A DNA stretch of 64,000 nt from Apostichopus japonicus. Its lineage: Eukaryota > Echinodermata > Holothuroidea > Aspidochirotida > Stichopodidae. The stretch lies in NCBI RefSeq assembly GCF_037975245.1, contig NC_092563.1, positions 25,016,960 to 25,080,959 of the forward strand. The letters are read 5' to 3'. Of the stretch, positions 4,201 through 43,512 are shown piece after piece. The notes beneath the pieces were generated by a model that was not told the origin of the DNA, did no database searches, and saw only the letters and a list, made by a program, of their open reading frames with translations. The position numbers and the translations under genes are program-made. Every line of letters begins with the position of its first letter. Position 1 is the stretch's first letter.

Positions 4201-4269
<69 letters not shown>

Positions 4270-15836: not shown

Positions 15837-15915
15837 ACTGCTCAGAAAAGTTCCTTCAGCTTTGTCTTTTCTTCACTGAAACTCAAAGCGGCGATATATT
15901 TTCATCATTGCAGCA
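15837..15915 (-). ncRNA. Box C/D snoRNA family 1, array-edge copy
   Basis: Box C ATGATGA and box D CTGA are present. The distal terminal-stem arm is diverged (GCAGTG instead of GCAGCA). It is the last recognisable copy at the 3' end of the array. Confidence 0.65.
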
Positions 15916-15989
15916 ACAACCTTGTTCGCAGAACACATTGGCTGAGAAGACAGCAGTTACACAACGTTCAGCAGTCACATATGCATTCG

Positions 15990-16235
15990 GTAGAAGCAAA
16001 ATTGGTATGAAACTTACACTTCACATTGAGTGGCCATCCAGTGTACAGTTGTAACTCATTTTGGATCTTTTTTCTCCTATACAATTTGGGAGACCATTAC
16101 AGATGTGAAAACCGTCGATTTTTCTTGGATGAAAACCCCACCTTTACTTTGGCTGACCAGGGGTCGATCCCACTACCTTCCTGATGCTAGAATTAATTAC
16201 CTCTAACGCCACGGTCATTATCGACTGGACCGTAC
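15990..16235 (-). mobile_element. tRNA-derived SINE (family 1), reverse orientation
   Basis: On the - strand it reads a B-box-like GGGATCGACCCC, then GGTGGGGTTTTCATCCAAG and a diverged body matching the SINE at 11908. The head is degraded. Confidence 0.6.
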
Positions 16236-16924
16236 TAATTTATTTTGCAACTTGTTTTCTGAGACTTGGTACTTCCAATAAGTCCCTCCATACATATATC
16301 TCTAATGCCATAATACCATATAGTAAGGTAAACAGTAAACAACTCATATAATCATAGAATTTTTTATATAGGAGTCATATTCCTACATCAACTGTAAGAG
16401 GCAATATCGTGTCATCACTGCAGCTACTAACCTAATCACAGGTCAAGAGGTCAACATCTTAACAAAGTACACCTACAAATGTTCTTAACATATTTTCAGC
16501 GTGTTTTATACCACCTAAAAATTTGCTTTCTTGTAAATATCTGCTCTATAACAAATAACCAAAATGGACCAATTTAACACAAATGATAGTTTCTATAAAT
16601 CTAATGGATTTAGAAGATCTACAAATTTTTTTCAAGTAAGTGTATTATTTGCCAAAGTCGGTTTTCCAATAATTCAGTTACCTTTGACTTTAGATTTTGG
16701 GTTTGTAACTCCTTAAGGTTACTAACTGGAGTTCATATTATCTTGGCTGTCTCTGAACAGGGTCAATGCCACTTTTAGAATCCTATCTTCTTCTTGGAAT
16801 GATGATCATCTATCCTGTAAACAAATCGAGAGGAAATTATTTTAATGCGAGCCTGCCTCGGTACTTGATCAATAACATTTGCTGATTTCATTCAAATATT
16901 GTAGAACTCTATGTAACACATCTA

Positions 16925-17004
16925 TGCTGCTCAGAATAATTCCTTCAGCTTTGTCTTTTCTTCACTGAAACTCAAAGCGGCGATATATTTTCATCATTAC
17001 AGCA
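16925..17004 (-). ncRNA. Box C/D snoRNA family 1, a-like copy
   Basis: 80 nt. One terminal-stem base is changed so a G-C becomes a wobble pair (TGCTGT/GCAGCA). Both main boxes are intact. It abuts SINE family 2. Confidence 0.7.
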
Positions 17005-17228
17005 CAAAATTCGCTCAGTGGTTATTGCCGGTGCCTTCCGAAGAAGGCCCCGAGTTCGAGTCACTACAAGATTAATGAATGTCGTCCAGTTACAGAGTTG
17101 TTGACAATTGACATCATGGACGTTAAAATATGAATGTAAGAGACTGACTTCGGTCAGCTTGCGGCTTTGATAAGGCAATGAGGCTTCTTCGTTCCTGCTT
17201 GCAGGAGGATCTAAAATACATACATACA
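17005..17228 (+). mobile_element. tRNA-derived SINE (family 2) inserted beside a snoRNA copy
   Basis: Head CGCTCAGTGGTTATTGCCGG with B box GAGTTCGAGTCAC; the tail is ACATACATACAT. It splits the array right after the snoRNA at 16925-17004 and ends where the next snoRNA copy begins. Confidence 0.7.
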
Positions 17229-17306
17229 TGCTGCTCAGAATATTTCCTTCAGTTTGTCTTTCTTCACTGAAACTCAAAGCGGCGATATATTTTCATCATT
17301 GCAGCA
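17229..17306 (-). ncRNA. Box C/D snoRNA family 1b
   Basis: 78 nt with TGCTGC/GCAGCA stem, box C ATGATGA, D' TTGA, C' GTGAAGA, box D CTGA. It lies between the SINE and exon E at 17459. Confidence 0.8.
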
Positions 17307-17671
17307 TCAAACTTATGCCTAGATAAAAAAACATGACAGGATACCACATAACACATTTCCAAACTATTTTCACCATGATCAGGATATAAAAATGGTCCTT
17401 GAAAAACTTAAACATGAAGTAATTGATAATTAAAATAAAGCTAGGGATAGATTCGTACCTCTAGAAAGGCCAAGTCAAGCCCAAACTCTTTTCTGCTGCT
17501 GCAGTATAAAGCCTCATCTTCCATTCTTTTGGCAACAATATTCATCTTTCCTGTAAATAATCATAACAAAATATGAATAACAATAACAGAAAATTTATTC
17601 AGTTTCATAAAACCAAACTTTGGCACACCAAAACTTGATTTATTTCTTAAAAGAACAATAGAACATTTCCA

Positions 17672-17751
17672 TGCTGCTCAGAATAATTCCTTCAGCTTTG
17701 TCTTTTCTTCACTGACACTCAAAGCGGCGATATATTTTCATCATTGCAGCA
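17672..17751 (-). ncRNA. Box C/D snoRNA family 1a
   Basis: 80 nt, all boxes intact. This unit is short: exons C and D are missing, consistent with deletion of the 571-bp cassette. Confidence 0.8.
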
Positions 17752-18177
17752 TCAAACTTATACCTAGGAAAAAAACATGACAGGATACCACATAACACAT
17801 TTCCAAACTATTTTCACCATAATCACAACTATTAATGAATTTAACAGAGTTTCTTTAACTAATGCTAGGCAGGTGGTGATTCTGGACAAGTAAAAATACA
17901 AGTCATAGGTCTTTCATCAATTTCTAAATGGGCAATATGTTAAGGGTTAAAAAGAACAAATTCAAACCTTTAAATTGAGAAGTTTTCAGTTAGCTTGCTT
18001 CTCCTTCACAGATTGAAAAACTTTTCATCCTCCTTGCATCGTCTTTTCTCTCCACCTAAAAGTGCAATGTTTCTGTAAATATTGAGGGAAAAAATGTGAT
18101 CGAATCAAAATGAGTTTGCAACATCATATGGCAATCCTCTTTGGTATAAAAATTGGGTTTTACTGTATTTTTCCAAT

Positions 18178-18256
18178 CCATCCGTACTCAGAATTACGTC
18201 CATTTTGTCTTCAGAGAAGTCAAAGTTGGTATAAATATTTCGTCGCAGTAGGATCC
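18178..18256 (-). ncRNA. Box C/D snoRNA family 2, box C degraded
   Basis: Box C reads GCGACGA where the other copies have GTGATGA. Boxes D' and D (both CTGA) and the stem remain. Probably inactive. Confidence 0.55.
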
Positions 18257-18721
18257 ATGGAATTTGTATTGAAAAAATTAACACTTAGGCAAGCTTTCTA
18301 CAATCATAACAATATTGCAACAAAACTTTCCATATCAACAAGTATAATCCTGTCAAACAAACACAAAACATATTGTGTGGCAAAGACCAAATGATCTGTA
18401 CAAATATCGGACAATTTACTGAGAATGTCTTCTGTTGCATGATTTTATTGAGGATATAAAAGGGTACTTGAAAAACTTAAACATGAAGTAGTTGATAATT
18501 ATAATAAAGCTAGGGATAGATTCGTACCTCTAGAAAGGCATAGTTAAGCCCACACTTGCTTTTCTGCTGCTGCAGTATAAAGCCTCATCTTCCTTTCTTT
18601 TGGCAACAATATTCATCTTTCCTGTAAATAATCGTAACAAAATATGAATAACAATAACAGAAGATTTATTCAGTTTCACAAAACCAAACTTCTGCACACT
18701 AAAACTTGATTTATTCCTTAA

Positions 18722-19347
18722 AGCAGCATTTTGTGTTTTGTCGCCGTTTTCCACTTTTTCGACATGTCCATCAAGTTTTTTACATATATCAATCACAAAA
18801 CAGCAAACTAAGATATTAGCAAAGTTTTTTCCCTGCCAAAAGCGTTAATTGGCGAGTCATTAAGGACATATGCAGATAATGAGAAAAGTGTCGTCCGACA
18901 ATTTACACATTTAATATGAACCGCATACAGTTCCCCCAACCCACCAGTTTGAATTCAACCAATCAGAGATGCAGGTTTAGTTATGAGCAGTTGCTAAAAA
19001 TAGATTCAAAACGTCAAGTTGGTACCTTGGTACAACCAGCGAGCTGGACTCTAACAGCTCCCTGGTACAACTGCCATAGACAATCTACAAAAATCAAGCA
19101 TGGTGTTGTATTACGTATTGGCCAATGATGTTCGTAGTTTTTAAATATTCATATTATGGGCGAGGTTTATTTGGATCCCAACGGAAAATATCTTCTAGAA
19201 AAACAAAGTTCAAAGTTGTAGATTTTTCGACTTTTATGCCACCATTTGAAGTAAGAATTGAATAGATAAGCTAGTTATGTATGTCGTTATGGCATCGTGG
19301 AATCAGCGAGGTTAGAAAAACCATAGAAAAGGATGCAAAATACTGCT
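18722..19347. mobile_element. 626-bp MITE with TTAA target duplication
   Basis: Flanked by TTAA at 18718-18721 and 19348-19351. The ends are inverted repeats AGCAGCATTTTG and AGCAGTATTTTG (right end read on the - strand). No coding capacity. TTAA duplications are typical of piggyBac and Kolobok families; the terminal AGCAG is not the CCC of piggyBac. It lies in the D-E intron and leaves the neighbouring snoRNA whole. Confidence 0.85.
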
Positions 19348-19372
19348 TTAAAAGGACAATAGAACATTTCCA

Positions 19373-19450
19373 TGCTGCTCAGAATATTTCCTTCAGTTTG
19401 TCTTTCTTCACTGAAACTCAAAGCGGCGATATATTTTCATCATTGCAGCA
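19373..19450 (-). ncRNA. Box C/D snoRNA family 1b in a D-E intron
   Basis: Flanks are those of the 1a position, but the body has the 78-nt b sequence, as if gene conversion replaced it. The TTAA MITE lies 25 nt away. Confidence 0.8.
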
Positions 19451-19906
19451 CAAAACTTGCCTATGGCCATAAAAGTCAAAAATGTTGAACACAGTTCATA
19501 AACACATCTTCTAAGATTCTTTAAGAATAGATAGCATCTCTGAATCAACATACCTGTATAAATCAATGATTGGTCATGATTTTACAAGTCAGAAATGTTT
19601 AATCAGTACATACACAAAAAGGTCAATACTCATACCTTTTTAAATGCTAGGGAAAGCACTACATTCCCTTTTCTGCTCCTGTCCAGGATTAAAGACAAAC
19701 TCTTCTTTGCTGTCAACATCTATGTCAATCTCTCCTGCTGAGAATTGAGAACGAAAGTGATTATTCACAACATATAATAAATAATAACAAATTTGATACA
19801 AAAGGTTCAACAACACCACCCTTGACAACATCTATCCTGGACAATTCTGGCAATGCCTTGTGATAAATTAGTGAAAGTAGTTTGCAAGAATTAAGTTATT
19901 CATCGT

Positions 19907-19984
19907 TGCTGCTCAGAATATTTCCTTCAGTTTGTCTTTCTTCACTGAAACTCAAAGTGGCGATATATTTTCATCATTGCAGCA
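19907..19984 (-). ncRNA. Box C/D snoRNA family 1b
   Basis: A-C intron copy. One base of the D'-side guide is changed (CGCCAC for CGCCGC). Confidence 0.78.
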
Positions 19985-20422
19985 TCAAACTTATGCCTAG
20001 AAAAAAACATGACAGGATACCACATAACACATTTCCAAACAATTTTCACCTTAATCACAACCATTTAAGAAATTAACACGGTTTCTTTAACTAATGCTAG
20101 GCAGGTGTTGCTTCTGGACAAGTAAAAATAGAAGTCATAGGTCTTTCATCAATTTCTAAAGGGGCAATATGTTAAGGGTTGATGAGAACAAAATTCAAAC
20201 CTTTAAAATTGAGAAGTTTTCAGTCAGTTTGCTTCTCCTTCACAGATTGAAAAACTTTTCATCGTCTTTGCATCGTCTTGTCTCTCTACATTAATGTGCA
20301 ATGTTTCTGTAAATATTGAGGGAAAAAATGTGATCGCATCAAAATGAGTTTGCAACATCATATGGCAATCCTCTTTGGTATAAAAAATTGTGTTTTTCTT
20401 TACTTTTCTGTATTTTCCCAAT

Positions 20423-20500
20423 CCATTCGTACTCAGAATTACGTACATTTTGTCTTCAGAGAAGTCAAAGTTGGTATAATATTTCATCACAGTAGGATCC
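20423..20500 (-). ncRNA. Box C/D snoRNA family 2
   Basis: 78 nt: stem ATCCTAC/GTACGAAT, box C GTGATGA, D' CTGA, box D CTGA. One base shorter after box C and one change in the D-side guide (ATGTACGTAATT). Confidence 0.68.
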
Positions 20501-20985
20501 ATGGAATTTGCATTGAAAAATTAATACTTCGGCAAGCTTTTTACTATCATAACAATATTGCAACATAACTTTCCATATCAATAAGTATAATTCTGTCAAA
20601 CAAACACAAAACATATTGTGTGGCAAAGACAAAATGATCTGTACAAATATCGGACAATTTACTGAGAATGTCTTCTGTTGCATTATTTTATTGAGGATAT
20701 AAAAATGGTCCTTGAAAAACTTAAACATGAAGTAGTTGATAATTACAATAAAGCTAGGGATAGATTCGTACCTCTAGAAAGGCCAAGTCAAGCCTAAACT
20801 CTCTTTTCTGCTGCTGAAGCATAACGCCTCATCTTTCTTTCTTTTGGCAACAATATTCATCTTTCCTGTAAATAATCATAACAAAATATGAATAACAATA
20901 ACAGAAAATTTATTCAGTTTCATAAAACAAAACTTTGGCACACAAAACTTGATTTATTCCTTAAAAGGACAATAGAACATTTCCA

Positions 20986-21064
20986 TGCTGCTCAGAATAA
21001 TTCCTTCAGCTTTGTCTTTTCTTCACTGACACTCAAAGCGGCGATATTTTTCATCATTGCAGCA
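20986..21064 (-). ncRNA. Box C/D snoRNA family 1a
   Basis: 79 nt: one base deleted between box C and the D'-side guide (AAAAATATCG). Boxes intact. Confidence 0.78.
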
Positions 21065-21557
21065 CAAAACTTGCCTATGGCCATAAAAGTCAAAAATGTT
21101 GAACACAGCATAAACACATCTTCTAAGATTCTTTAAGAATAGATAGCATCTCTGAATCAACATACCTGTATAAATCACTGAATGGTCATGATTTTACAAG
21201 TCAGAAATGTGTAATCAGTACATACACACAACATGGAAGTTATTTTTATTAAGGTCAATATTCATACCTTTTTAAATGCTATGGAAAGCACTAAATTCCC
21301 TTTTCTGCTCCTGTCCAGGATTAAAGACAAACTCTTCTATACTCTCAACATCTATGTCAATCTTTCCTGCAGAGAATTGAGAAAGAAAAGTGATTATTCA
21401 CAACATATAATAAAAAATAATAACATATTTGATAAAAAAAGCTTCAACAACACCTGGACAACACCACCCTTCACAACATCTATCCTGGACAACAATTCCG
21501 GCAATGCCTCATGATAAATTAGTGAAAGTAGTTTGCAAGAATTAAGTTATTCATCAT

Positions 21558-21635
21558 TGCTGCTCAGAATATTTCCTTCAGTTTGTCTTTCTTCACTGAA
21601 ACTCAAAGCGGCGATATATTTTCATCATTGCAGCA
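21558..21635 (-). ncRNA. Box C/D snoRNA family 1b
   Basis: Canonical b copy in the A-C intron upstream of exon C at 21268. Confidence 0.8.
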
Positions 21636-22062
21636 TCAAACTTATGCCTAGAAAAAAAAACATGACAGGATACCACATAACACATTTCCAAACTATTTTC
21701 ACCATAATCACAACCATTAATGAAATTAACACGGTTACTTTAACTAATGCTAGGCAGGTGGTGCTTCTGGACAAGTCAAAATAGAAATCTAGGTCTTTCA
21801 TCAATTTCTAAATGGGCAATATTTTAAGGGTTGAAAAGAACAAAATTCAAACCTTTAAAATTGAGAAGTTTTCAGTTAGTTTGCTTCTCCTTTACAGATT
21901 GAAATACTTTGCATCGTCTTTTCTCTCCACATAATAGTGCAATGTTTCTGTAAATATTGAGGGAAAAAATGTGATCGCATCAAAATGAGTTTGCAACATC
22001 ATATGGCAATCCTCTTTGGTATAAAAATTGGGTATTTCTTAACTTTTCTGTACTTTTCCAAT

Positions 22063-22141
22063 CCATCCGTACTCAGAATTACGTCCATTTTGTCTTCAGA
22101 GAAGTCAAAGTTGGTATAAATATTTCATCACAGTAGGATCC
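22063..22141 (-). ncRNA. Box C/D snoRNA family 2
   Basis: Canonical 79-nt copy: 5' stem arm ATCC-TAC pairs with GTAC-GGAT around one bulge; box C GTGATGA; D' and D are CTGA; the D-side guide is AAAATGGACGTAATT. Confidence 0.72.
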
Positions 22142-22628
22142 ATGGAATTCGCATTGAAAAATAAATACTTAGGCAAGCTTTCTACAATCGTAACAATATT
22201 GCAACATAACTTTCCATATCAATAAGTATATTCCTGTCAAACGCAACACAAAAAAATTTGTGTTGCAAAGACCAAATGATTTGTACAAATGTCGGACAAT
22301 TTACTGAGAATGTCTTCTGTTGCATTATTTTATTGAGGATATAAAAATGGTCCTTGAAAAACTTAAACATGAAGTAGTTGATAATTATAATAAAGCTAGG
22401 GATAGATTTGTACCTCTAGAAAGGCGTAGTTAAGCCCACACTTGCTTTTCTGCTGCTGAAGCATAACGCCTCATCTTTCTTTCTTTTGGCAACAATATTC
22501 ATCTTTCCTGTAAATAATCGTAAAAAAATATGAATAACAATAACAGAAAATTTATTCAGTTTCATAAAACCAAACTTTGGCACACCAAAACTTGATTTAT
22601 TCCTTAAAAGGACAATAGAACATTTCCA

Positions 22629-22706
22629 TGCTGCTCAGAATATTTCCTTCAGTTTGTCTTTCTTCACTGAAACTCAAAGCGGCGATATATTTTCATCATT
22701 GCAGCA
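22629..22706 (-). ncRNA. Box C/D snoRNA family 1b in a D-E intron
   Basis: A second case of a b body at the 1a position; its exon-D side is also hybrid (TATGCCTATTGCC on + strand). Confidence 0.8.
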
Positions 22707-23186
22707 TCAAAATTATGCCTATTGCCATAAAAGTCAAAAATGTTGAACTCAGTTCATAATCACATCTTCTAAGATTCTTTAAGAATAGATAGCATCTCTG
22801 AATCAACATACCTGTATGAATCACTGAATGGTCATGCTTTTATGAGTCAGAAATGTTTAGTCAGTACATACACACATCATGGAAGTTATTTTTTAGAAAG
22901 GTCAATATTCATACCTTTTTAAATGCTAGGGAAAGCACTACATTCCCTTTTCTGCTCCTGTCCAGGATTAAAGACAAACTCTTCTGTACTGTCAACATCT
23001 ATGTCAATCTCTCCTGCTGAGAATTGAGAACAAAAGTGATTATTCACAACATATAATAAATAATAACAAATTTGATACAAAAAGCTTGGACAACACCACC
23101 CTTGACAACATCTATCCTGGACAACAATTCCAGCAATGCCTCATGATAAATCGGTGAAAGTATGCAAGAATTAAGTTAAACATCGT

Positions 23187-23264
23187 TGCTGCTCAGAATA
23201 TTTCCTTCAGTTTGTCTTTCTTCACTGAAACTCAAAGCGGCGATATATTTTCATCATTGCAGCA
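23187..23264 (-). ncRNA. Box C/D snoRNA family 1b
   Basis: Canonical b copy, 170 nt upstream of the exon C acceptor at 23016. Confidence 0.8.
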
Positions 23265-23698
23265 TCAAACTTATAACTAGAAAAAAAACATGACAGGATA
23301 CCACATAACACATTTCCAAACTATTTTCACCATAATCACAACCATTAAAGAAATTAACACGGTTTCTTTAACTAATGCTAGGCAGGTGGTGCTTCTGGAC
23401 AAGTCAAAATAGAAGTCATAGGTCTTTCATCAATTTCTAAAGTGGCAATAAGTTAAGGGTTGAAAAGAACAAAATTCAAACCTTTAAATTGAGAAGTTTT
23501 CAGTTAGTTTGCTTCTCCTTCACAGATTGAAAAACTTTTCATCGTCCTTGCATCGTCTTTTCCCTCCACATAAAAGTGCAATGTTTCTGTAAATGAGGGA
23601 AAAAATGTGATCGAATCAAAATGAGTTTGCAACATCATATGGCAATCCTCTTTGGTATAAAAATTGGGTTTTTCTTTACCTTACTGTATTTTTCCAAT

Positions 23699-23777
23699 CC
23701 ATCCGTACTCAGAATTACGTCCATTTTGTCTTCAGAGAAGTCAAAGTTGGTATAAATATTTCATCACAGTAGGATCC
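23699..23777 (-). ncRNA. Box C/D snoRNA family 2
   Basis: Canonical, ends 112 nt upstream of the exon A acceptor at 23586. Confidence 0.72.
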
Positions 23778-24262
23778 ATGGAATTCGCATTGAAAAATTC
23801 ATACTGAGGCAAGCTTTCTACAACATAACAATATTGCAACATAAACATTCCATATCAATAAGTATAATCCTGTCAAACAAACACAAAACATATTGTGTGG
23901 CAAGACCAAATGATTTGTACAAATGTCAGACAATTTACTGAGAATGTCTTCTGTTGCATTATTTTATTGAGGATATAAAAATGGTCCATGAAAAACTTAA
24001 ACATGAAGTAGTTGATGATTAAAATAAAGCTAGGAATAGATTCGTACCTCTTGAAAGGCCATGTCAAGCCCAAACTCTCTTTTCTGCTGCTGAAGCATAA
24101 CGCCTCATCTTTCTTTCTTTTGGCAGCAATATTCATCTTTCCTGTAAATAATCATAACAAAATATGAATAACAATAACAGAAAATTTATTCAGTTTCATA
24201 AAACCAAACTTTGGCACACCAAAACTTAATTTATTCCTTAAAAGGACAATAGAACATTTCCA

Positions 24263-24342
24263 TGCTGCTCAGAATAATTCCTTCAGCTTTGTCTTTTCTT
24301 CACTGACACTCAAAGCGGCGATATATTTTCATCATTGCAGCA
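24263..24342 (-). ncRNA. Box C/D snoRNA family 1a
   Basis: Canonical 80-nt copy, 121 nt upstream of the exon E acceptor at 24141. Confidence 0.8.
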
Positions 24343-24831
24343 CAAAACTTGCCTTTGGCCATAAAAGTAAAAAATGTTGAGCTCGGTTCATAAACACATC
24401 TTCTAAGATTCTTTGAGAATAAATCATATCTCCCAATCAACATACCTGTATAAATCACTGAATGGTCATGATTTTATAAGTCAGAAATGTTTAATCAGTA
24501 CATACACACATCATGGAAGTTATTTTTAGTAAGGTCAATATTCATACCTTTTTAAATGCCAAGGAAAACACTACATTCCCTTTTCTGCTCCTGTCCAGGA
24601 TTAAAGACAAACTCTTCTTTACTGTCAACATCTATGTCAATCTCTCCTGCTGAGAATTGAGAACGAAAGTGATTATTCACAACATTTCCTCAATAATAAC
24701 AAATTTGATACAAAAAGCTTCCACAACACCCTGGACAACACCACCCTTGACAACATCTATCCTGGACAACAATTCCGGCAATGCCTCATGATAAATTAGT
24801 GAAAGTATGCAACAATTAAGTAATGCATTGT

Positions 24832-24909
24832 TGCTGCTCAGAATATTTCCTTCAGTTTGTCTTTCTTCACTGAAACTCAAAGCGGCGATATAGTTTCATC
24901 ATTGCAGCA
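24832..24909 (-). ncRNA. Box C/D snoRNA family 1b
   Basis: Carries a base change two positions 3' of box C (GATGAAACTATATCG), shared with the copy at 37529. Confidence 0.78.
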
Positions 24910-25015
24910 TCAAACTTATGCCTAGAAAAAAACATGACAGGATACCACATCACACATTTTCAAACTATTTTCACCATAATCACAACTATTAAAGAAATCA
25001 ACACGGTTTCTTTAG

Positions 25016-25530
25016 TATAGTTTAGTTAAATAGAAAAAAAGGATCAGGAGGGACACTTAAGTACCCATCAAGGACCCTATAGAGAGAGAAAAAAAAACTG
25101 AAGACACAAACACTCAGACCCGATTACAATGCTTAAAGTGCTTGTCCAAAGCATTCTTTAACCCATTGACACTACTTAAGGAACTAATCATCCCAGTAGC
25201 CCTCCTCTGGACCTTTTCAAGTATTTCCTTATCCTTAGCAAAATATGGGTTCCAAGCCTGCACAGCATACTCCAGATAAGGCCTAACCAACTGCTTTTAA
25301 AGCCTAACTACGATGTCCTCTTTCAGAAAACTGAAGTTCCTCTTGATCATACCTAAAACCCTATTACCTATTTTAGCAGCTTCAAGACAATGTTAAGAAG
25401 GTTGCAGATGAGTCAATGTAGATACCAAGGTTTCTTTGAACAGAGACCTCCTGTAACTCCACACCATTAAGATTGTATGTAAACTTTTGTTACTACTACC
25501 AATGTGCATTACCTTGCATTTATCACCTTC
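25016..25530 (-). pseudogene. 5'-truncated LINE (CR1/L2-like) fragment inserted in the array
   Basis: On the - strand it reads DKCKVMHIGSSNKSL, VELQEVSVQRNLGIYID and EYAVQAWNPYFAKDKE, then LEKVQRRATGMISSL, the C-terminal RT/thumb region of CR1/L2-type LINEs, with frameshifts between the blocks. It replaces part of exon A and the adjoining intron of one array unit, so the insertion came with a target deletion. Confidence 0.85.
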
Positions 25531-25674
25531 TTTGCATCGTCTTTTCTCTCCACATAAAAGTGCAATGTTTCTGTAAATTTTGAGGAAAAAATGTGATCGA
25601 ATCAAAATGAGTTTGCAACATCATATGGCAATCCTCTTTGGTATAAAAACTGGGTTTTTCTTTACTTTCCCAAT

Positions 25675-25753
25675 CCATCCGTACTCAGAATTAGGTCCAT
25701 TTTGTCTTCAGAGAAGTCAAAGTTGGTATAAATATTTCATCACTGTAGGATCC
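25675..25753 (-). ncRNA. Box C/D snoRNA family 2
   Basis: One change in the D-side guide (GGACCTAATT). Followed by the LINE-truncated exon A, so its splicing context is damaged. Confidence 0.68.
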
Positions 25754-26232
25754 ATGGAATTCGCATTGAAAAATTCATACTTAGGCAAGCGTTCTACAAT
25801 CATAACAATATTGTAACATAACTTTCCATATCAATAAGTATAATCCTGTCAAACAAACACAAAACATATTGTGTGGCAAAGACCAAATGATTTGTACAAA
25901 TGTCGGACAATTGCATGAGAATGTCTTCTGTTGCATTATTTTATTGAGGATATAAAAATGGTCCTTGAAAAACTTAAACATGATGATAATTAAAATAAAG
26001 CTAGGGATAGATTCGTACCTCTAGAAAGGCGTAGTTAAGCCCACACTTGCTTTTCTGCTGCTGCAGTATAAAGCCTCATCTTCCTTTCATTTGGCAACAA
26101 TATTCATCTTTCCTGTAAATAATCATAACAAAATATGAATAACAATAACAGAAAATTTATTCAGTTTCATAAAACCAAACTTTGGCACACAAAACTTGAT
26201 TCATTCCTTAAAAGGACAATAGAACATTTCCA

Positions 26233-26312
26233 TGCTGCTCAGAATAATTCCTTCAGCTTTGTCTTTTCTTCACTGACACTCAAAGCGGCGATATATTTTC
26301 ATCATTGCAGCA
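26233..26312 (-). ncRNA. Box C/D snoRNA family 1a
   Basis: Canonical 80-nt copy in the D-E intron after the LINE-damaged unit. Confidence 0.8.
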
Positions 26313-26804: not shown

Positions 26805-26882
26805 TGCTGCTCAGAATATTTCCTTCAGTTTGTCTTTCTTCACTGAAAATCAAAGCGGCGATATATTTTCATCATTGCAGCA
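26805..26882 (-). ncRNA. Box C/D snoRNA family 1b
   Basis: Box D' context altered (TTGATTTTC for TTGAGTTTC); main boxes intact. Confidence 0.77.
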
Positions 26883-27297: not shown

Positions 27298-27376
27298 CCA
27301 TCCGTACTCAGAATTACGTCCATTTTGTCTTCAGAGAAGTCAAAGTTGGAATAAATATTTCATCACAGTAGGATCT
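27298..27376 (-). ncRNA. Box C/D snoRNA family 2, stem altered
   Basis: The 5' flank reads CTGAGATCC instead of CCATGGATCC; boxes intact. One base change after box C (TATTCC). Confidence 0.66.
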
Positions 27377-27862: not shown

Positions 27863-27942
27863 TGCTGCTCAGAATAATTCCTTCAGCTTTGTCTTTTCTT
27901 CACTGACACTCAAAGCGGCGATATATTTTCATCATTGCAGCA
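27863..27942 (-). ncRNA. Box C/D snoRNA family 1a
   Basis: Identical by eye to the copy at 26233, as are its flanks, indicating a recent unit duplication. Confidence 0.8.
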
Positions 27943-28431: not shown

Positions 28432-28509
28432 TGCTGCTCAGAATATTTCCTTCAGTTTGTCTTTCTTCACTGAAACTCAAAGCGGCGATATATTTTCATC
28501 ATTGCAGCA
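28432..28509 (-). ncRNA. Box C/D snoRNA family 1b
   Basis: Canonical b copy. The A-side flank shares the CACTAAAG variant with the next units. Confidence 0.8.
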
Positions 28510-28940: not shown

Positions 28941-29019
28941 CCATCCGTACTCAGAATTACGTCCATTTTGTCTTCAGAGAAGTCAAAGTTGGTATAAATA
29001 TTTCATCACAGTAGGATCC
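28941..29019 (-). ncRNA. Box C/D snoRNA family 2
   Basis: Canonical body; the intron downstream carries a short deletion next to GTATTTTTCC, shared with the 31154 copy. Confidence 0.72.
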
Positions 29020-29505: not shown

Positions 29506-29584
29506 TGCTGCTCAGAATAATTCCTTCAGCTTGTCTTTTCTTCACTGACACTCAAAGCGGCGATATATTTTCATCATTGCAGCA
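29506..29584 (-). ncRNA. Box C/D snoRNA family 1a
   Basis: 79 nt: one T missing in the D-side region (AGACAAGCTGAAGG). Boxes intact. Confidence 0.78.
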
Positions 29585-30074: not shown

Positions 30075-30152
30075 TGCTGCTCAGAATATTTCCTTCAGTT
30101 TGTCTTTCTTCACTGAAACTCAAAGCGGCGATATATTTTCATCATTGCAGCA
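30075..30152 (-). ncRNA. Box C/D snoRNA family 1b, extra-cassette copy
   Basis: Belongs to a duplicated 571-bp D/C/snoRNA cassette (29.5-30.6 kb). It is followed directly by a hybrid exon D instead of exon A. Confidence 0.8.
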
Positions 30153-30644: not shown

Positions 30645-30722
30645 TGCTGCTCAGAATATTTCCTTCAGTTTGTCTTTCTTCACTGAAACTCAAAGCTGCG
30701 ATATATTTTCATCATTGCAGCA
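30645..30722 (-). ncRNA. Box C/D snoRNA family 1b
   Basis: One guide base changed (ATCGCAGC for ATCGCCGC) next to D'. Second b copy of the 2213-bp unit. Confidence 0.78.
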
Positions 30723-31153: not shown

Positions 31154-31232
31154 CCATCCGTACTCAGAATTACGTCCATTTTGTCTTCAGAGAAGTCAAA
31201 GTTGGTATAAATATTTCATCACAGTAGGATCC
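31154..31232 (-). ncRNA. Box C/D snoRNA family 2
   Basis: Same as the 28941 copy by eye; part of a recent 2.2-kb duplication. Confidence 0.72.
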
Positions 31233-31718: not shown

Positions 31719-31798
31719 TGCTGCTCAGAATAATTCCTTCAGCTTTGTCTTTTCTTCACTGACACTCAAAGCGGCGATATATTTTCATCATTGCAGCA
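31719..31798 (-). ncRNA. Box C/D snoRNA family 1a
   Basis: Canonical body. The exon D donor next to it is changed (ACAAGT instead of GCAAGT). Confidence 0.8.
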
Positions 31799-32288: not shown

Positions 32289-32366
32289 TGCTGCTCAGAA
32301 TATTTCCTTCAGTTTGTCTTTCTTCACTGAAACTCAAAGCGGCGATATATTTTCATCATTGCAGCA
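32289..32366 (-). ncRNA. Box C/D snoRNA family 1b
   Basis: Canonical b copy 30 nt from the 4.7-kb insertion that splits exon D. Confidence 0.8.
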
Positions 32367-34136: not shown

Positions 34137-34887
34137 TCTTCATATATTACCATGGTAACAATCATACTCAACCCTTTTTCATTCCCCAGTGAATGCGGTC
34201 ACCAAATTCTCCCCAAATTTTCCCCAAATTCTGGTGGCCCAGAATGAAAATGTGATCGCCACTTCGATATGCTAAATATTAGTACAAAAAAAAAACGGCC
34301 TAGGCTCAACATCGAGTAGCCTAGCACTACTGTCACGGTACTGACTACTAACGTTGAAGCTAGTAGTTAGTACTGATGTCAGTGGCTCGTAGTACATTTT
34401 TATTTTAAAATAATAGGCTAATGTATATTATTTTCTAACAAAATGGGTACGGTGAAAAATATCTTACTTTATGTTTTCATGTTCAAATACGTAGGTGTAA
34501 GATAATTCCTTCCTCAATAATTTCTATTTGCTTTTGTTTCTTTCATTAACTTGTTAATTACTGTACTTCATATAATTAACATTACTACTAGCTCACACTG
34601 CCGCCGCTGATTATGCTTGCTCTCCACGTCTATTGGATCAGACCATATAAATATCCAATTTAGCTCTTAAACAGTTACTACTAGTACTACTATCTTATAT
34701 GCAGGCCCATGGTTCGCATTAGCCACTAGATTGCGCGATTCGCGCAATTTGATCGCATTTGGAATAAACGATTAGAAAAAAGCCACTTGCGCTGATTATT
34801 GTTTTGTTATCCCGTCTATAACCCATAAACATCTCGTAAAATTCCTTGTCAACCTCTCCTTCTATGAAATAAACGATTGAATCAATC

Positions 34888-35230
34888 ATTTCTTCCACAT
34901 GGTAGCCTAACACCACACTGAGTCAATGGAAATCTAGCTAAACCTAACCATCTGCATCTTCGCTGAATTTGTGACGCAGTTATAAGATATCCATGGAATA
35001 CTTTCATTATTGCTGTTACGTTCGACAACTTCGACCACATGGTTGCCTAACATCATACTAAGTCAATGGGGGTAATCTAGCCTAGCCGTCTGTTTATTAG
35101 CTGAAATTGTGACGCAGTTATAAGATATCAATAGAATACTTTCGTTATTGCTGTTATCTTCGACCACATGGTAGCCTTACACCACACTAACTTGGTCAAT
35201 GGAAAATCTGCCTAACCATCGGTTTGCAAA
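34888..35230 (+). repeat. Tandem repeat, about 135-bp unit, 2.5 copies
   Basis: CCACATGGTAGCCTAACACC recurs near 34895, 35035 and 35165 with GTGACGCAGTTATAAGATAT between copies. Confidence 0.75.
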
Positions 35231-35458
35231 AAAAAATCACACTTTGCGTAGGATTCGGGTAATAAATTAGGAACCGGGTAGTACCGCGTCGCCGGCTTGT
35301 GTTGCATACATCCTATTGTATTGCCTTGACAAATGATTTCTCGAACCCGCGCAATATCACATTAATATAAATTAATCGGAAATTTCGCGCCATTTTGAAA
35401 CCAGACAGACTGCATGGTCGTTACTACGACGCAAAACTTTTCCCTCCTGCCTTTTCAG

Positions 35459-35512
35459 GTATATAAGGAAAACATCGCAGGAGCTGTCAATATTAGCTCA
35501 CTCTTTCCACAG
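35459..35512 (+). promoter_or_regulatory. Possible TATA promoter inside the 4.7-kb insertion
   Basis: TATATAAG at 35461-35468 is followed about 40 nt later by CTCTTTCC. No gene is recognised downstream, so this is only suggestive. Confidence 0.25.
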
Positions 35513-37528
35513 TACCGTGATACACAACACCTAGCTTGGAAAGAATAAATACAAATACACGGGTGTGCGAAAATGATCACGCGACGAAACGATTTTTTTT
35601 AGCTAGCTAGGTGGTTGGCTATTGAGTGTAGGTTTTTATATTGTGTTGTTGACTGGACTGTATTCCAAGCTGTTATAACGAAAGGATCGACTGTCAGGGT
35701 TTTTTCAGTGATTATTTCACAGTATTGTCATCATTTTAAACGTGCGGCGCCCGTTGACTGAGCAGTACATACAAATAACTAATAGTTACAGAGCCATTTA
35801 TTGGCGTCTCAAAAGCTGTCCCACTCAAATTCGGCCGTCTTTCATTTCGATCTAGCCGTCTCAAAGACGGCGAGACGCATTGCTAGCTAAGACCCTGGAC
35901 TGGCCTCCTCTTCCCCTAATAGCCACCTCAGTTCCTCTCCATTTTGTTATTTTATTTTAATTCTTTGTACATTTGATGTCAAACATTACAGGTTCAAAAG
36001 AAAGCTAAACATACTTCATATAACCTTATACATCTTATATCCTTATAAATAAAACATAACCTTATACAATTTTGATAGTCTTATAAAAGTTGTGATGCTA
36101 TGGCCGGCTCCTCTTTTATACGTACCCATCAAACAAACTTACCCTGGTCCTTCCTAGGAAAAGCTGTCTGAACACCAGTACAATGCTAATGTGGCTATCA
36201 CTGAAAGCCTAATAGGCCTAGGCTTATATATATATATATTTTTTAAATGCACTAGGCCTACAGTAAGTAAGTAGCCTTCAGAAATACAAGAATGTGTATA
36301 CGTAATTATACAAAATACATGAAGGGCAATCAAACAAACTTATCATGGCCCTTGCTCTGAAAAGCTACCTGAACACCAGTACTATCCTTAAATGGAATTC
36401 AGCAGTACAGAATGTAATTAGCATGCAATACACTAACACCTCGCGTACCTAACTACACTACAGAAATTGGTCGCGAGCGTAGCCATTTTCGTGTAGCTGT
36501 TATGAGTCATAGCCAATCTGCTACAAAACAGACTTGGGGGCGGGGCTTAATCATCAAAAACGGACCTTTTTACTAATAGTATTGGCGGCAGCTCAGTGTT
36601 GTTTTAAGAAAGAAAAATCATTTAACCATCAAATAAAGCAAATAAAAGCCATAAAATGTCATATACAGGTAGTAAAATTCTTATTAATACCTACCTGTAA
36701 ACAACAAATGAAAGTTTAAAATGTTAATAAAATATATAATACATAGGACCCTATCTTAGACGATACCACTGTTGAAAGACAGTTCTATTCTATTCTCTTT
36801 CATAAAACATAAGTTTTGGAGCGTGTGCAAAACAGGTCTGACAAAGTGTGTTTTCAGTCCAAATTGGCCCGATTTGGACATAAATCGGTGAAAAAGTCAC
36901 AGAATGAGATACAATTCTGGAATAAAAAATAGTAACTTTTGTTGGTCTATATGATATATTCTTGCTCTGGAAATTCCAGAGAAAAAGAACTTTGTTTGAA
37001 GACGCTCAATTTTTAAGAGAAGAGAGAGTCCCACTTACTGTTACAATATCTCTATACAAGTAATGTATTGAGATAAAAATGTTGAACTCAGTTCATAAAC
37101 ACAACTTCTTAGATTCTTTAAGAATAGATAGCATCTCTCAATCAACATACCTAATTAAATCACTGAATGGTTATGATTTTATAAGTCAGAAATGTTTAAT
37201 CAGTACATACAAACAATCATGGAAGTTATTTTTTAGTAAGGTCAATATTCATACCTTTTCAAATTCTAGGGAAAGCACTACATTCCCTTTTCTGCTCCTG
37301 TCCAGGATTAAAGACAAACTCTTCTTTACTGTCAACATCTATGTCAATCTCTCCTGCTGAGAATTGAGAACAAAAGTGATTATATACAACAAATAATAAA
37401 TAATAACAAATTTGATACAAAAAGCTTCAACAACACCACCTTTCACAACATCTATCCTCCACAATAAAATTCCGGCAATGCTTAATGATAAATTAGTGAA
37501 AGTATGCAAGAATTAAGTTATTCATCGT

Positions 37529-37606
37529 TGCTGCTCAGAATATTTCCTTCAGTTTGTCTTTCTTCACTGAAACTCAAAGCGGCGATATAGTTTCATCATT
37601 GCAGCA
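37529..37606 (-). ncRNA. Box C/D snoRNA family 1b
   Basis: First copy of the 37-43.5 kb segment in + coordinates. Shares the ACTATATCG variant with the copy at 24832. Confidence 0.78.
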
Positions 37607-38041
37607 TCAAACTTATACCTAGGAAAAAACATGACAGGATACCACATCACACATTTCCAAACTATTTTCACCATAATCACAACCATTAAAGAAATTAACA
37701 CGGTTTCTCTAACTAATGCTAGGCAGGTGGTGCTTCTGGACAAGTAAAAACAAGTCATAGGTCTGTCATCAATTTCTAAATGGGCGATATGTTAAGGGTT
37801 GAAAAGAACAAAATTCAAACCTTTGAAATTGAGAAGTTTTCAGTTAGTTTGCTTCTCCTTCAGAGATTGAAAAACGTTTCATTGTCTTTGCATCGTCTTT
37901 TCACTCCACATAAAAGTGCAATGTTTCTGTAAATATTGAGGGGAAAAATGTGATTGAATCAAAATGAGTTTGCAACACCATATGGCAATCCTCTTTGGTA
38001 TAAAAATTGGGTATTTCTTAACATTTCTGTACTTTTCCAAT

Positions 38042-38120
38042 CCATCCGTACTCAGAATTACGTCCATTTTGTCTTCAGAGAAGTCAAAGTTGGTGTAAAT
38101 ATTTCATCACAGTAGGATCC
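38042..38120 (-). ncRNA. Box C/D snoRNA family 2
   Basis: Has TTTACACC in place of TTTATACC before the D'-side guide; boxes intact. Confidence 0.7.
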
Positions 38121-38611
38121 ATGGAATTTGCATTGAAAAATAAATATTTAGACAAGCTTTCTACAATCATAACAATATTGCAACATAACTTCCATATCAA
38201 TAAGTATAATCCTGTCAAACAAACACAAAACATGATGTGTCACAAAGACCAAATGATCTGTACAAATGTCGGACAATTTACTGAGAATGTCTCCTGTTGC
38301 ATTATTTTATTGAGGGTATAAAAATGGTCCTTGAAAAACTTAAACATGAAGTAGTTGATAATTGAAATAAAGCTAGGGATAGATTCGTACCTCTAGAGGG
38401 GCCAAGTCAAGCCCAAACTCTCTTTTCTGCTGGTGAAGCATAATGCCTCATCTTTCAATCTTTTGGCAACAATATTCATCTTTCCTGTAAATAATCGTAA
38501 CAAAATATGAATAATATGAATAATCACAGGATATTTATTCAGTTTCATAAAACCAAACTTTGGCACACCAAAACTTGATTTATTCCTTAAAAGGACAATA
38601 GAACATTTCCA

Positions 38612-38691
38612 TGCTGCTCAGAATAATTCCTTCAGCTTTGTCTTTTCTTCACTGACACTCAAAGCGGCGATATATTTTCATCATTGCAGCA
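38612..38691 (-). ncRNA. Box C/D snoRNA family 1a
   Basis: Canonical. Exon D after it starts with a variant (TTGCATATGGCC on the + strand), shared with the unit at 40.3 kb. Confidence 0.8.
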
Positions 38692-39187
38692 CAAAACTTG
38701 CATATGGCCATAAAAGTCAAAAATGTTGAACGCAGTTCATAAACACATCTTCTAAGATTCTTTAAGAATACATAGCATCTCTCAATCAACATACCTGTAT
38801 AAATCACTGAATGCTCATGATGTTTTAAGTCAGAAATGTTTCATAAGTACATACACACATCATGCAAGTTATCTTTTAGTAGGGTCAATATTCATACCTT
38901 TTTAAATTCTAGGGAAAGCACTACATTCCCTTTTCTGCTCCTGTCCAGGTTAAAAGACAAACTCTTCTTTACTCTCAACATCTATGTCAATATCTCCTGC
39001 TGAGAATTGAGAACGAAAGTGATTATTCACAACATATAATAAATAATAACAAATTTGATACAAAAAACTTGGACACCCTGGACAACAGTCACAACACCAC
39101 CCTTCACAACATCTATCCTGGACAACAATTCCGACAATGCCTCGTGATAAATTAGTGAAAGTATGCAAGAATTAAGTTATCCATCGT

Positions 39188-39265
39188 TGCTGCTCAGAAT
39201 ATTTCCTTCAGTTTGTCTTTCTTCACTGAAACTCAAAGCGGCGATATATTTTCATCATTGCAGCA
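39188..39265 (-). ncRNA. Box C/D snoRNA family 1b
   Basis: Canonical, in a 1.66-kb unit almost identical to its neighbour at 40.8 kb. Confidence 0.8.
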
Positions 39266-39713
39266 TCAAACTTATGCCTAGAAAAAAAACATGACAGGAT
39301 ACCACATAACACATTTCTAAACTATTTTCACCATGATCACAACCATTAAAGAAATAAACACGGTTTCTTTAACTAACGCTAGGCAGGTGGTGCTTCTGGA
39401 CAAGTCAAAATACATGTCATAGGTCTTTCATCAATTTCTAAATTGGCAATATGTTAAGGGTTGAAAAGAACAAAATTCAAACCTTTGAAATTGAGAAGTT
39501 TTCAGTTAGTTTGCTTCTCCTTCAGAGATTGAAAAACTTTTCATCGTCTTTGCATCGTCTTTTCACTCCACATAAAAGTGCAATGTTTCTGTAAATATTG
39601 AGGGGAAAAATGTGATTGAATCAAAATGAGTTTGCAACACCATATGGCAATCCTCTTTGGTATAAAAATTGGGTATTTCTTAACATTTCTGTACTTTTCC
39701 AATCCATCCGTAC

Positions 39714-39782
39714 TCAGAATTACGTCCATTTTGTCTTCAGAGAAGTCAAAGTTGGTGTAAATATTTCATCACAGTAGGATCC
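39714..39782 (-). ncRNA. Box C/D snoRNA family 2
   Basis: Shares the TTTACACC variant with the 38042 copy; stem, box C GTGATGA and both CTGA boxes intact. Coordinates run from the distal stem arm to GGATCC. Confidence 0.7.
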
Positions 39783-40267
39783 ATGGAATTTGCATTGAAA
39801 AATAAATATTTAGACAAGCTTTCTACAATCATAACAATATTGCAACATAACTTCCATATCAATAAGTATAATCCTGTCAAACAAACACAAAACATGGTGT
39901 GCCACAAAGACCAAATGATCTGTACAAATGTCGGACAATTTACTGAGAATGTCTTCTGTTGCATTATTTTATTGAGGGTATAAAAATGGTCCTTGAAAAA
40001 CTTAAACATGAAGTAGTTGATAATTGAAATAAAGCTAGGGATAGATTCGTACCTCTAGAGGGGCCAAGTCAAGCCCAAACTCTCTTTTCTGCTGGTGAAG
40101 CATAATGCCTCATCTTTCAATCTTTTGGCAACAATATTCATCTTTCCTGTAAATAATCGTAACAAAATATGAATAACAATCACAGGATATTTATTCAGTT
40201 TCATAAAACCAAACTTTGGCACACCAAAACTTGATTTATTCCTTAAAAGGACAATAGAACATTTCCA

Positions 40268-40347
40268 TGCTGCTCAGAATAATTCCTTCAGCTTTGTCTT
40301 TTCTTCACTGACACTCAAAGCGGCGATATATTTTCATCATTGCAGCA
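40268..40347 (-). ncRNA. Box C/D snoRNA family 1a
   Basis: Canonical, near-identical to the copy at 38612 including flanks. Confidence 0.8.
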
Positions 40348-40844
40348 CAAAACTTGCATATGGCCATAAAAGTCAAAAATGTTGAACGCAGTTTATAAAC
40401 ACATCTTCTAAGATTCTTTAAGAATACATAGCATCTCTCAATCAACATACCTGTATAAATCACTGAATGCTCATGATGTTTTAAGTCAGAAATGTTTCAT
40501 AAGTACATACACACATCATGCAAGTTATCTTTTAGTAAGGTCAATATTCATACCTTTTTAAATTCTAGGGAAAAGAACTACATTCCCTTTTCTGCTCCTG
40601 TCCAGGTTAAAAGACAATCTCTTCTTTACTGTCAACATCTATGTCAATATCTCCTGCTGAGAATTGAGAACGAAAGTGATTATTCACAACATATAATAAA
40701 TAATAACAAATTTGATACAAAAAACTTGGACACCCTGGACAACAGTCACAACACCACCCTTCACAACATCTATCCTGGACAACAATTCCGACAATGCCTC
40801 GTGATAAATTAGTGAAAGTATGCAAGAATTAAGTTATCCATCGT

Positions 40845-40922
40845 TGCTGCTCAGAATATTTCCTTCAGTTTGTCTTTCTTCACTGAAACTCAAAGCGGCG
40901 ATATATTTTCATCATTGCAGCA
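40845..40922 (-). ncRNA. Box C/D snoRNA family 1b
   Basis: Canonical, near-identical to the copy at 39188. Confidence 0.8.
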
Positions 40923-41359
40923 TCAAACTTATGCCTAGAAAAAAAACATGACAGGATACCACATAACACATTTCTAAACTATTTTCACCATGATCACAAC
41001 CATTAAAGAAATAAACACGGTTTCTTTAACTAACGCTAGGCAGGTGGTGCTTCTGGACAAGTCAAAATACATGTCATAGGTCTTTCATCAATTTCTAAAT
41101 TGGCAATATGTTAAGGGTTGAAAAGAACAAAATTCAAACCTTTAAATTGAGAAGTTTTCAGTTAGTTTGCTTCTCCTTCAGAGATTGAAAAACTTTTCAT
41201 CGTCTTTGCATATTCTTTTCTCTCCACATAAAAGTGCAATGTTTCTGTAAATATTGAGGGGAAAAATGTGATCGCATCAAAATGAGTTTGCAACATCATA
41301 TGGCAATCCTCTTTGGTATAAAAATTGGGTTTTTCTTTACTCTTCTGTATTTTTCCAAT

Positions 41360-41438
41360 CCATCCGTACTCAGAATTACGTCCATTTTGTCTTCAGAGAA
41401 GTCAAAGTTGGTATAAATATTTCATCACAGTAGGATCC
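41360..41438 (-). ncRNA. Box C/D snoRNA family 2
   Basis: Canonical copy in the E-A intron between exon E (41709) and exon A (41244). Confidence 0.72.
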
Positions 41439-41923
41439 ATGGAATTTGCATTGAAAAATTAATACTTAGGTAAGCTTTCTACAATCATAACAATTTTGCA
41501 ACATAACTTTCCATATCAATAAGTATATTCCTGTCAAACGCAACACAAGAAATGTTGTGTCGCAAAGACCAAATGATTTGTACAAATGTCGGACAATTTA
41601 CTGAGAATGTCTTTTGTTGCATCATTTTGTAGGATATAAAATTGGTCCTTGAAAAACTTAAACATGAAGTAGTTGATAATTAAAATAAAGCTAGGGATAG
41701 ATTCATACCTCTAGAAAGGCATAGTTAAGCCCACACTTGCTTTTCTGCTGCTGCAGTATAAAGCCTCATCTTCCTTTCTTTTGTCAACAATATTCATCTT
41801 TCCTGTAAATAATCGTAACAAAATATGAATAACAATAACAGAAAATTTATTCAGGTTCATTAAACCAAACTTTGACACAGCAAAAATTGATACATTCCTT
41901 AAAAGGACAATAGAACATTTCCA

Positions 41924-42003
41924 TGCTGCTCAGAATAATTCCTTCAGCTTTGTCTTTTCTTCACTGACACTCAAAGCGGCGATATATTTTCATCATTGCA
42001 GCA
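41924..42003 (-). ncRNA. Box C/D snoRNA family 1a
   Basis: Canonical, 121 nt upstream of the exon E acceptor at 41802. Confidence 0.8.
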
Positions 42004-42492
42004 CAAAACTTGCCTATGGCCATAAAAGTCAAAAATGTTGAACTCAGTTCATAAACACATCTTCTAAGATTCTTTAAGAATAGATAGCATCTCTGAATCA
42101 ACATACCTGTATAAATCACTGAATGTCATGATTTTATAAGTCAGAAATGTTTAATCAGTACATACACACATCATGAAAGTTATTTTTTAGTAAGGTCAAT
42201 ATTCATACCTTTTTAAATGCTAGGGAAAGCACTACATTCCCTTTTCTGCTCCTGTCCAGGATTAAAGACAAATTCTTCTTTACTGTCAACATCTATGTCA
42301 ATCTCTCCTGCTGAGAATTGAGAACGAAAGTGATTATTCACAACATATAATAAATAATAACAAATTTGATACAAAAAGCTTGGACAACACCCTGGACAAC
42401 ACCACCCTTGACAACATCTATCCTGGACAACAATTCCGGCAATGCCTCATGATAAATTAGTGAAAGTATGCAAGAATTAAGTTATACATCGT

Positions 42493-42570
42493 TGCTGCTC
42501 AGAAGATTTCCTTCAGTTTGTCTTTCTTCACTGAAACTCAAAGCGGCGATATATTTTAATCATTGCAGCA
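42493..42570 (-). ncRNA. Box C/D snoRNA family 1b, box C mutated
   Basis: Box C reads ATGATTA instead of ATGATGA, hitting the sheared G-A pair of the kink-turn, so this copy is probably inactive. Stem and box D intact. Confidence 0.65.
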
Positions 42571-43008
42571 TCAAACTTATGCCTAGAAAAAAAACATGAC
42601 AGGATACCACATCACACATTTCCAAACTATTTTCACCATGATCACAACCATTAAAGAAATAAACACGGTTTCTTTAACTAACGCTAGGCAGGTGGTGCTT
42701 CTGGACAAGTCAAAATACATGTCATAGGTCTTTCATCAATTTCTAAATTGGCAATATGTTAAGGGTTGAAAAGAACAAAATTTAAACCTTTAAAATTGAG
42801 AAGTTTTCAGTTAGTTTGCTTCTCCTTCAGAGATTGAAAAACTTTTCATCGTCTTTGCATCGTCTTTTCTCTCCACATAAAAGTGCAATGTTTCTGTAAA
42901 TATTGAGGGGAAAAATGTGATTGAATCAAAATGAGTTTGCAACATCATATGGCAATCCTCTTTGGTATAAAAATTGGGTTTTTCTTTACTCTTCTGTATT
43001 TTTCCAAT

Positions 43009-43087
43009 CCATCCGTACTCAGAATTACGTCCATTTTGTCTTCAGAGAAGTCAAAGTTGGTATAAATATTTCATCACAGTAGGATCC
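43009..43087 (-). ncRNA. Box C/D snoRNA family 2, most 5' copy
   Basis: Canonical; the first snoRNA a transcript entering from the putative promoter would meet after exon E at 43360. Confidence 0.72.
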
Positions 43088-43486
43088 ATGGAATTTGCAT
43101 TGAAAAATTAATACTTAGGTAAGCTTTCTACAATCATAACAATTTTGCAACATAACTTTCCATATCAATAAGTATATTCCTGTCAAACGCAACACAAGAA
43201 ATGTTGTGTCGCAAAGACCAAATGATTTGTACAAATGTCGGACAATTTACTGAGAATGTCTTTTGTTGCATTATTTTGTTTAGGATATAAAATTGGTCCT
43301 TGAAAAACTTAAACATGAAGTAGTTGATAATTAAAATAAAGCTAGGGATAGATTCGTACCTCTAGAAAGGCCAAGTCAAGCCCAAACTCTCTTTTCTGCT
43401 GCTGAAGCATAACACCTCATCTTCCTTCCTTTTGGCAACAATATTCATCTTTCCTGTAAATAATCGTAACAAAATATGAATAACAA

Positions 43487-43512
43487 TTTAGTTTTATCAT
43501 TGCAGCACGAAC
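43487..43512 (-). pseudogene. Fragment of snoRNA family 1 at the array's 5' edge
   Basis: Only GTGCTGCAATGATAAAAC (- strand) remains, with a defective box C; unrelated sequence follows. It marks the array boundary. Confidence 0.6.

Follow-up and report, generated by a model that had tools for sequence, protein, structure and literature searches.

Why a sea cucumber should carry some forty copies of intronic small nucleolar RNAs (snoRNAs) side by side is the question posed by a 64-kb stretch of the Apostichopus japonicus genome (C3:25016960-25080959, hereafter the window). A sequence-only reading had described a - strand array of box C/D snoRNAs, in two families, within the introns of a repeated non-coding host, had likened it to the mammalian SNORD115/116 and SNORD113/114 loci, and had suggested a dosage need, an unusual target or a tissue-specific role. 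The explanation we favour, with moderate confidence, is that of a non-coding host array whose family 1 would be a C/D guide directed at 28S ribosomal RNA (rRNA), the D' side guiding and the D side serving as a clamp.

Layout, identity and variation of the array

By blastn, the window contains 28 copies of family 1 and 12 of family 2, every one on the - strand and within 15836-43085, in agreement with the claimed number of about 40. The whole array, read on the - strand, occupies 15836-43512 and is interrupted at ~32.4-37.5 kb. Its repeat unit of ~1.65 kb has three apparent introns with one snoRNA in each, and in regular units a 75-nt family-2 copy comes first, followed by family 1a (78 nt) and then by family 1b (79-80 nt). 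Successive family-2 copies are regularly spaced in 7 of 11 cases (1623-1662 bp); the four irregular spacings measure 1976, 2213, 2244 and 6888 bp, the longest spanning a copy-free stretch between 37529 and 32366.

All copies were placed by blastn on the - strand. Family 2 lies at 43011-43085, 41362-41436, 39706-39780, 38044-38118, 31156-31230, 28943-29017, 27300-27374, 25677-25751, 23701-23775, 22065-22139, 20425-20498 and 18180-18254, the last with a damaged box C (GCGACGA). Sorted by D element, family 1 comprises 16 copies of type 1a, 11 of type 1b and one variant of its own. Type 1a is found at 42493-42570 (box C damaged to ATGATTA), 40845-40922, 39188-39265, 37529-37606, 32289-32366, 30645-30722, 30075-30152, 28432-28509, 26805-26882, 24832-24909, 23187-23264, 21558-21635, 19907-19984 and 17229-17306. 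Two further 1a-type copies (22629-22706 and 19373-19450) occupy the 1b intron position, a sign of exchange among copies. Type 1b is found at 41924-42003, 40268-40347, 38612-38691, 31719-31798, 29506-29584, 27863-27942, 26233-26312, 24263-24342, 20986-21064 and 17672-17751, and in the edge copy at 16925-17004 (copy 17004). The other edge copy, at 15836-15915 (copy 15915), is the variant of its own. In both edge copies the snoRNA is retained, and its flanks do not resemble those of the regular units.

In regular units the snoRNAs are flanked by exon-like sequence with AG/GT borders, which in the first unit delimit putative host exons A (43360-43453), B (42788-42893) and C (42209-42307), all on the - strand. 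Strict patterns for the six splice borders match 7-13 times each within the window, which undercounts diverged units; the splicing is a prediction from sequence. The claimed intron hosting in a repeated non-coding host is apparent from these borders, with exons that are neither conserved nor open, and the tandem units thus appear to hold one C/D snoRNA per intron. A coding host was rejected: the exons differ by 5.4-10.1% among 7 aligned units, and their consensus, once joined, contains stop codons in each of the three frames.

Family 1 carries the boxes that had been attributed to it, namely a TGCTGC/GCAGCA stem, box C ATGATGA, D' TTGA, C' GTGAAGA and box D CTGA. D' and C' are present in 29 of 29 copies, counting the 28 in the window and a solitary copy in a VAC14-like gene (the VAC14 copy, described below). 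For family 2, box C GTGATGA, box D CTGA and the stem stand as described, but D' is better read as TTGA followed by a C' box CTGAAGA, not as CTGA; so read, both boxes are in register with family 1. Box C is damaged in 2 of the 40 copies, one in each family.

A strict scan of the window (RTGATGA, CTGA 45-100 nt on, and a stem of >=5 bp) returns 27 matches on the - strand, which are 27 of the 28 family-1 copies, and 0 on the + strand; 200 dinucleotide shuffles return a mean of 0.27 and a maximum of 2. The architecture exceeds what chance would give. Family 2 is entirely missed by the scan because its stem has a bulge, and it was assessed by alignment only, with box C intact in 11 of 12 copies. 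A model of family 1 built from 13 rows (12 of the 28 window copies and the VAC14 copy) ranks all 28 family-1 copies first, at 101-115 bits (12 of them by construction). All 12 family-2 copies form a second tier at 17.5-26.6 bits (E 0.0012-0.14), and everything else scores <=16.7 bits. Changes in the terminal stem retain pairing in 71 of 71 cells across 12 distinct rows, these being G-U changes only, with no two-sided changes and a shuffle control that does not discriminate.

At gathering score Rfam finds no snoRNA family in the window, and no Rfam family is assigned to the array snoRNAs because none reaches that score. At E<=10, the interval 15000-45000 yields 141 rows, 140 of them on the - strand and all of box C/D families; the remaining row is one bacterial small RNA (sRNA) model on the + strand. 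The missing curated match bars a named Rfam family, not the box C/D class, and by their architecture the array members are predicted box C/D snoRNAs, a class of 60-100 nt in which a terminal stem brings boxes C and D together and whose mature RNAs bind fibrillarin, NOP56/58 and 15.5K.

Within the unit, variation is lowest in the snoRNAs, and the host exons are unconstrained. Seven regular units (the array has 12 family-2 copies) were aligned: pairs of them differ on average by 6.1% over the whole unit, but by 0.8% in family 2, and by 1.1% and 2.2% at the 1a and 1b places. Ranked by divergence, the lowest three of the separate 75-nt windows coincide with the three snoRNAs, and the fourth, at unit positions 1571-1646, comes near the third (2.5% versus 2.3%). 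Variable sites number 11 of 233 inside the snoRNAs versus 238 of 1417 elsewhere (Fisher p 1.8e-7, which treats sites as independent).

This pattern bears on whether the locus is simply a tandem repeat that carries old snoRNA genes, spread by unequal exchange, and is today neither expressed nor functional. Many copies and their homogenisation can arise without a function, box C is damaged in the two copies named above, and the window holds other tandem repeats. Such a repeat would nonetheless have to account for snoRNAs that vary least in a unit whose exons are unconstrained, and for edge copies in which the snoRNA persists in other flanks; we regard it as highly improbable.

Complementarity of family 1 to 28S rRNA

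Targets for the D and D' elements were sought in the readable part of one ribosomal DNA (rDNA) unit, L047 1-3622, which we take to hold 18S, spacers, 5.8S and the first 28S bases, with bounds set from motifs. The family-1 D element pairs, through positions 6-15 from box D, with L047 3455-3464 (10 bp), and the D' element, through positions 1-8 and flush with box D', pairs with L047 3465-3472 (8 bp). The two targets touch near the 28S 5' end and form 18 contiguous nucleotides. The 10-pair D core holds in 29 of 29 copies, with G-U as its last pair in 13; pairing of the 8-bp D' element with 28S holds in 27 of 29, the copies at 30645-30722 and 19907-19984 having one mismatch each; D-element position 5, outside the core, varies among copies. 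For the joint D and D' score, 5000 shuffles each give p 0.0006 (1a), 0.0008 (1b), 0.0016 (copy 15915) and 0.0018 (VAC14 copy), and the contiguous arrangement is reproduced by 0 of 3000 shuffles of the family-1a elements.

Family 1 thus combines C' and D' boxes with predicted antisense elements next to D or D'. The suggestion of an unusual target finds no support for family 1: both elements match stretches of the animal's own 28S rRNA, and these stretches touch, so that a ribosomal role is the simpler reading.

In the mechanism that we propose, a three-exon unit of a non-coding host gene would have been copied in tandem, and each intron would release one box C/D snoRNA once the predicted transcript is spliced and processed. 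Family 1 would bind both 28S stretches, the D' side most likely guiding 2'-O-methylation of G3469 (L047 numbering) and the D side acting as an accessory clamp. This division of labour is preferred because the methylation position of the D side pairs only in 1b copies; in those 11, A3454 might also come within reach of the D side, by way of a duplex whose box-proximal part holds a mismatch and a G-U pair. The many copies would supply dosage, their likeness being kept by unequal exchange and conversion, and family 2, probably a relative that has diverged from family 1, would have a different target. Additional base pairing can promote methylation. For yeast snR190 it has been suggested that part of one antisense element strengthens the pairing made by the other (PMC8536666).

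Several points weigh against a guide of this kind. Most of 28S (L047 3623-8622) reads N and lay outside the target search. The joint and contiguity tests were framed after the adjacency had been seen, a single order of targets (D, then D') was considered, and the four family-1 sequences tested are related, not independent. Single elements are weak (D p 0.03-0.13, D' p 0.10-0.13); the best single D match of the VAC14 copy is in internal transcribed spacer 1 (ITS1, L047 2660), as is the best D match of family 1a in a cruder scoring. The D' duplex has just 8 bp, and its D' box is TTGA, not CTGA. The usual D-guide nucleotide, fifth from the box, pairs with 28S only in the 11 type-1b copies; the D side is not a normal methylation guide in the other 18 of 29 because that nucleotide is unpaired. 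Complementarity, moreover, does not ensure methylation: Tetrahymena TtnuCD32 is one counter-example (PMC6315972) and yeast snR190 a second (PMC8536666).

The snR190 case suggests that family 1 might instead be a 28S folding chaperone, which would hold its 18 contiguous nucleotides until removal by a helicase. Touching antisense elements that give 18 contiguous pairs, together with a D element off the methylation register, would suit such a role. An element of snR190, too, complements domain I of 25S, and the methylation that its D' element would predict is undetected (PMC8536666); the two family-1 elements lie in a single stretch close to the 5' end of 28S, a position that may correspond to domain I. 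A chaperone of the snR190 type would leave its predicted site unmethylated, and its loss would impair 60S assembly. The elements of snR190, however, match distant 25S regions, not touching ones (PMC8536666), and the family-1 D' element directly abuts box D', which is the arrangement of a guide. We entertain a chaperone tentatively, and place it close behind the methylation guide because snR190 does not methylate its predicted site.

Family 2 and the genomic setting

Family 2 looks like a distant relative of family 1, because its 12 copies rank next in the family-1 model search; shared boxes alone could yield part of that score, and the similarity of the two families between the boxes has p 0.012 in 5000 shuffles. 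For family 2, no rRNA target within L047 1-3622 reaches significance (joint p 0.70; D p 0.085, 5000 shuffles; D' p 0.45). Its best single match in the transcript, by both scorings, lies in 18S, where the D element could pair over 10 nt at L047 1980-1989 (one G-U) and would point at A1984. An 18S guide of this kind is nevertheless doubtful: the p of ~0.01 obtained for the D element in 100 shuffles under the cruder scoring stands against the 5000-shuffle value and the D' value just given, and the N of L047 3623-8622 leaves most of 28S unsearchable for a better target.

A family for which L047 1-3622 offers no significant rRNA target is also what orphan regulatory snoRNAs would present, and the array shares its genome architecture with SNORD115/116. 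The snoRNAs might thus act on messenger RNAs or be processing by-products, the 28S match being secondary. The 28S-complementary D core kept in every family-1 copy argues against such a role, which we consider distinctly unlikely.

With family 1 as query, a search of the genome (671.6 Mb in 35 contigs) finds 29 places, the 28 of the array and one at C3:29964890-29964972, 4.9 Mb off. Two frames with a Vac14 C-terminal domain lie upstream of this solo copy on the same strand; downstream of it, a frame without a Pfam match is presumably the last VAC14 exon. The box C of the solo copy is AGGATGA, its similarity to the array reaches only some tens of bases past the snoRNA, and Rfam up to E 1 finds no match in the VAC14 region. 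This solo copy is a candidate parent gene. With family 2 as query, the genome search finds 12 places, none of them outside the array. A 1.64-kb unit query finds at least 7 places, each either inside the array or coinciding with the VAC14 snoRNA, a lower bound because the search scores the best candidates only. A baseline search with U14, one family only, returned one place, below the cut-off, among the best 119 of 12350 candidates.

Further traces lie within or beside the array. Exon B of several units (e.g. 20202-20274, 37822-37905 and 39484-39556, - strand) weakly resembles family 1 (9.6-16.7 bits), possibly as an old snoRNA turned exon, or by chance; exon B is not claimed as a third snoRNA, the model scores being weak (<=16.7 bits). 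Possible family-1 remnants, both weak and both on the - strand, are found at the array's 5' edge (43450-43509, 14.2 bits, E 0.84) and near its 3' edge (16388-16427, 15.0 bits, E 0.53). At ~18720-19350 (-) an insertion splits the intron after family-1 copy 19450; read by eye, it has short TTTAA at both ends and AGCAG/CTGCT inverted ends.

The claimed adjacency to ATP2C1 is borne out: exons of an ATP2C1-type calcium pump occupy 1-about 10000 on the + strand (including 4215-4622 and 8449-8754), tail-to-tail with the array, and 8449-8754 matches solved ATP2C1 chains (E 2.4e-35). The ATP2C1-side part of the window also contains a 29-bp minisatellite (38 copies, 5710-6801). At 48993-51575 (-) there is an open 860-aa frame with an RVT_1 reverse transcriptase domain and a GIY-YIG match just under the curated cut-off, the make-up of a Penelope-like element, and two tRNA genes lie at 57245-57317 and 57618-57690 (-).

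Elsewhere in the assembly, rDNA on C5 (75309-616881) forms grouped units in both orientations, among the 40 places scored, and a 5S array on C8 (38055496-38094273) switches orientation once. COX1 on the 16,099-bp contig C35 is readable with table 9, the code of echinoderms and flatworms and the sole one applied, and its AAA codons fall at positions that we take to be Asn in COX1 motifs. Outside C35, pieces of COX1 with mitochondrial TGA codons are present at C29 14745-31219, as nuclear copies or mitochondrial duplicates.

Comparison with known snoRNA arrays and guides

SNORD24 (U24), an adjacent double guide, resembles family 1 in that its D and D' elements target neighbouring large-rRNA sites; it differs in its target region and in having both elements in methylation register. 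Trypanosomatid snoRNA clusters also consist of tandem units with several snoRNAs, but they are polycistronic and do not place one snoRNA in each intron. Yeast snR190 shares with family 1 the C/D class and the possession of two antisense elements, one of which in snR190 is complementary to 25S domain I (PMC8536666); unlike snR190 with its distant 25S targets, family 1 has targets that touch.

According to a 2024 review, the SNORD113-116 arrays, to which it adds the rat-only Bsr, are recent eutherian-specific innovations, and understudied genomes might harbour more such snoRNA repeats (PMC11028025). A second source agrees that imprinted snoRNAs are eutherian (PMC4063771). Like SNORD113-116 and Bsr, the sea cucumber array appears to have C/D snoRNAs in repeated introns of tandem non-coding hosts, with gene conversion and subfamilies (PMC11028025). 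It differs in its echinoderm host, where a SNORD115/116-type array would be eutherian, and in the interleaving of two families within one unit. The mammalian families are called orphan (PMC11028025), whereas family 1 has a predicted rRNA target and so departs from snoRNAs that lack rRNA complementarity. The parallel with SNORD115/116 and SNORD113/114 drawn by the sequence-only reading holds for architecture, though not, by predicted pairing, for orphan status in family 1. No such array outside mammals was found in the titles and abstract beginnings that made up the literature covered, a coverage that takes in few subscription papers and does not amount to proof.

It is conceivable, and we advance it with considerable doubt, that sea cucumbers evolved, independently of mammals, a high-dosage intronic C/D array that clamps 18 nt at the start of 28S and tunes folding or methylation of the large subunit, perhaps according to tissue or state of regeneration, with family 2 as a copy that drifted to a new target. 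An echinoderm array with 28S as the plausible target of its main RNA would demonstrate that arrays of this kind arise outside the eutherian setting of imprinting and orphan RNAs, and it offers a case for studying the amplification of an RNA with a testable ribosomal site. Its architecture is the one known from mammals, its lineage differs, and its family 1, judged by predicted pairing, is not an orphan.

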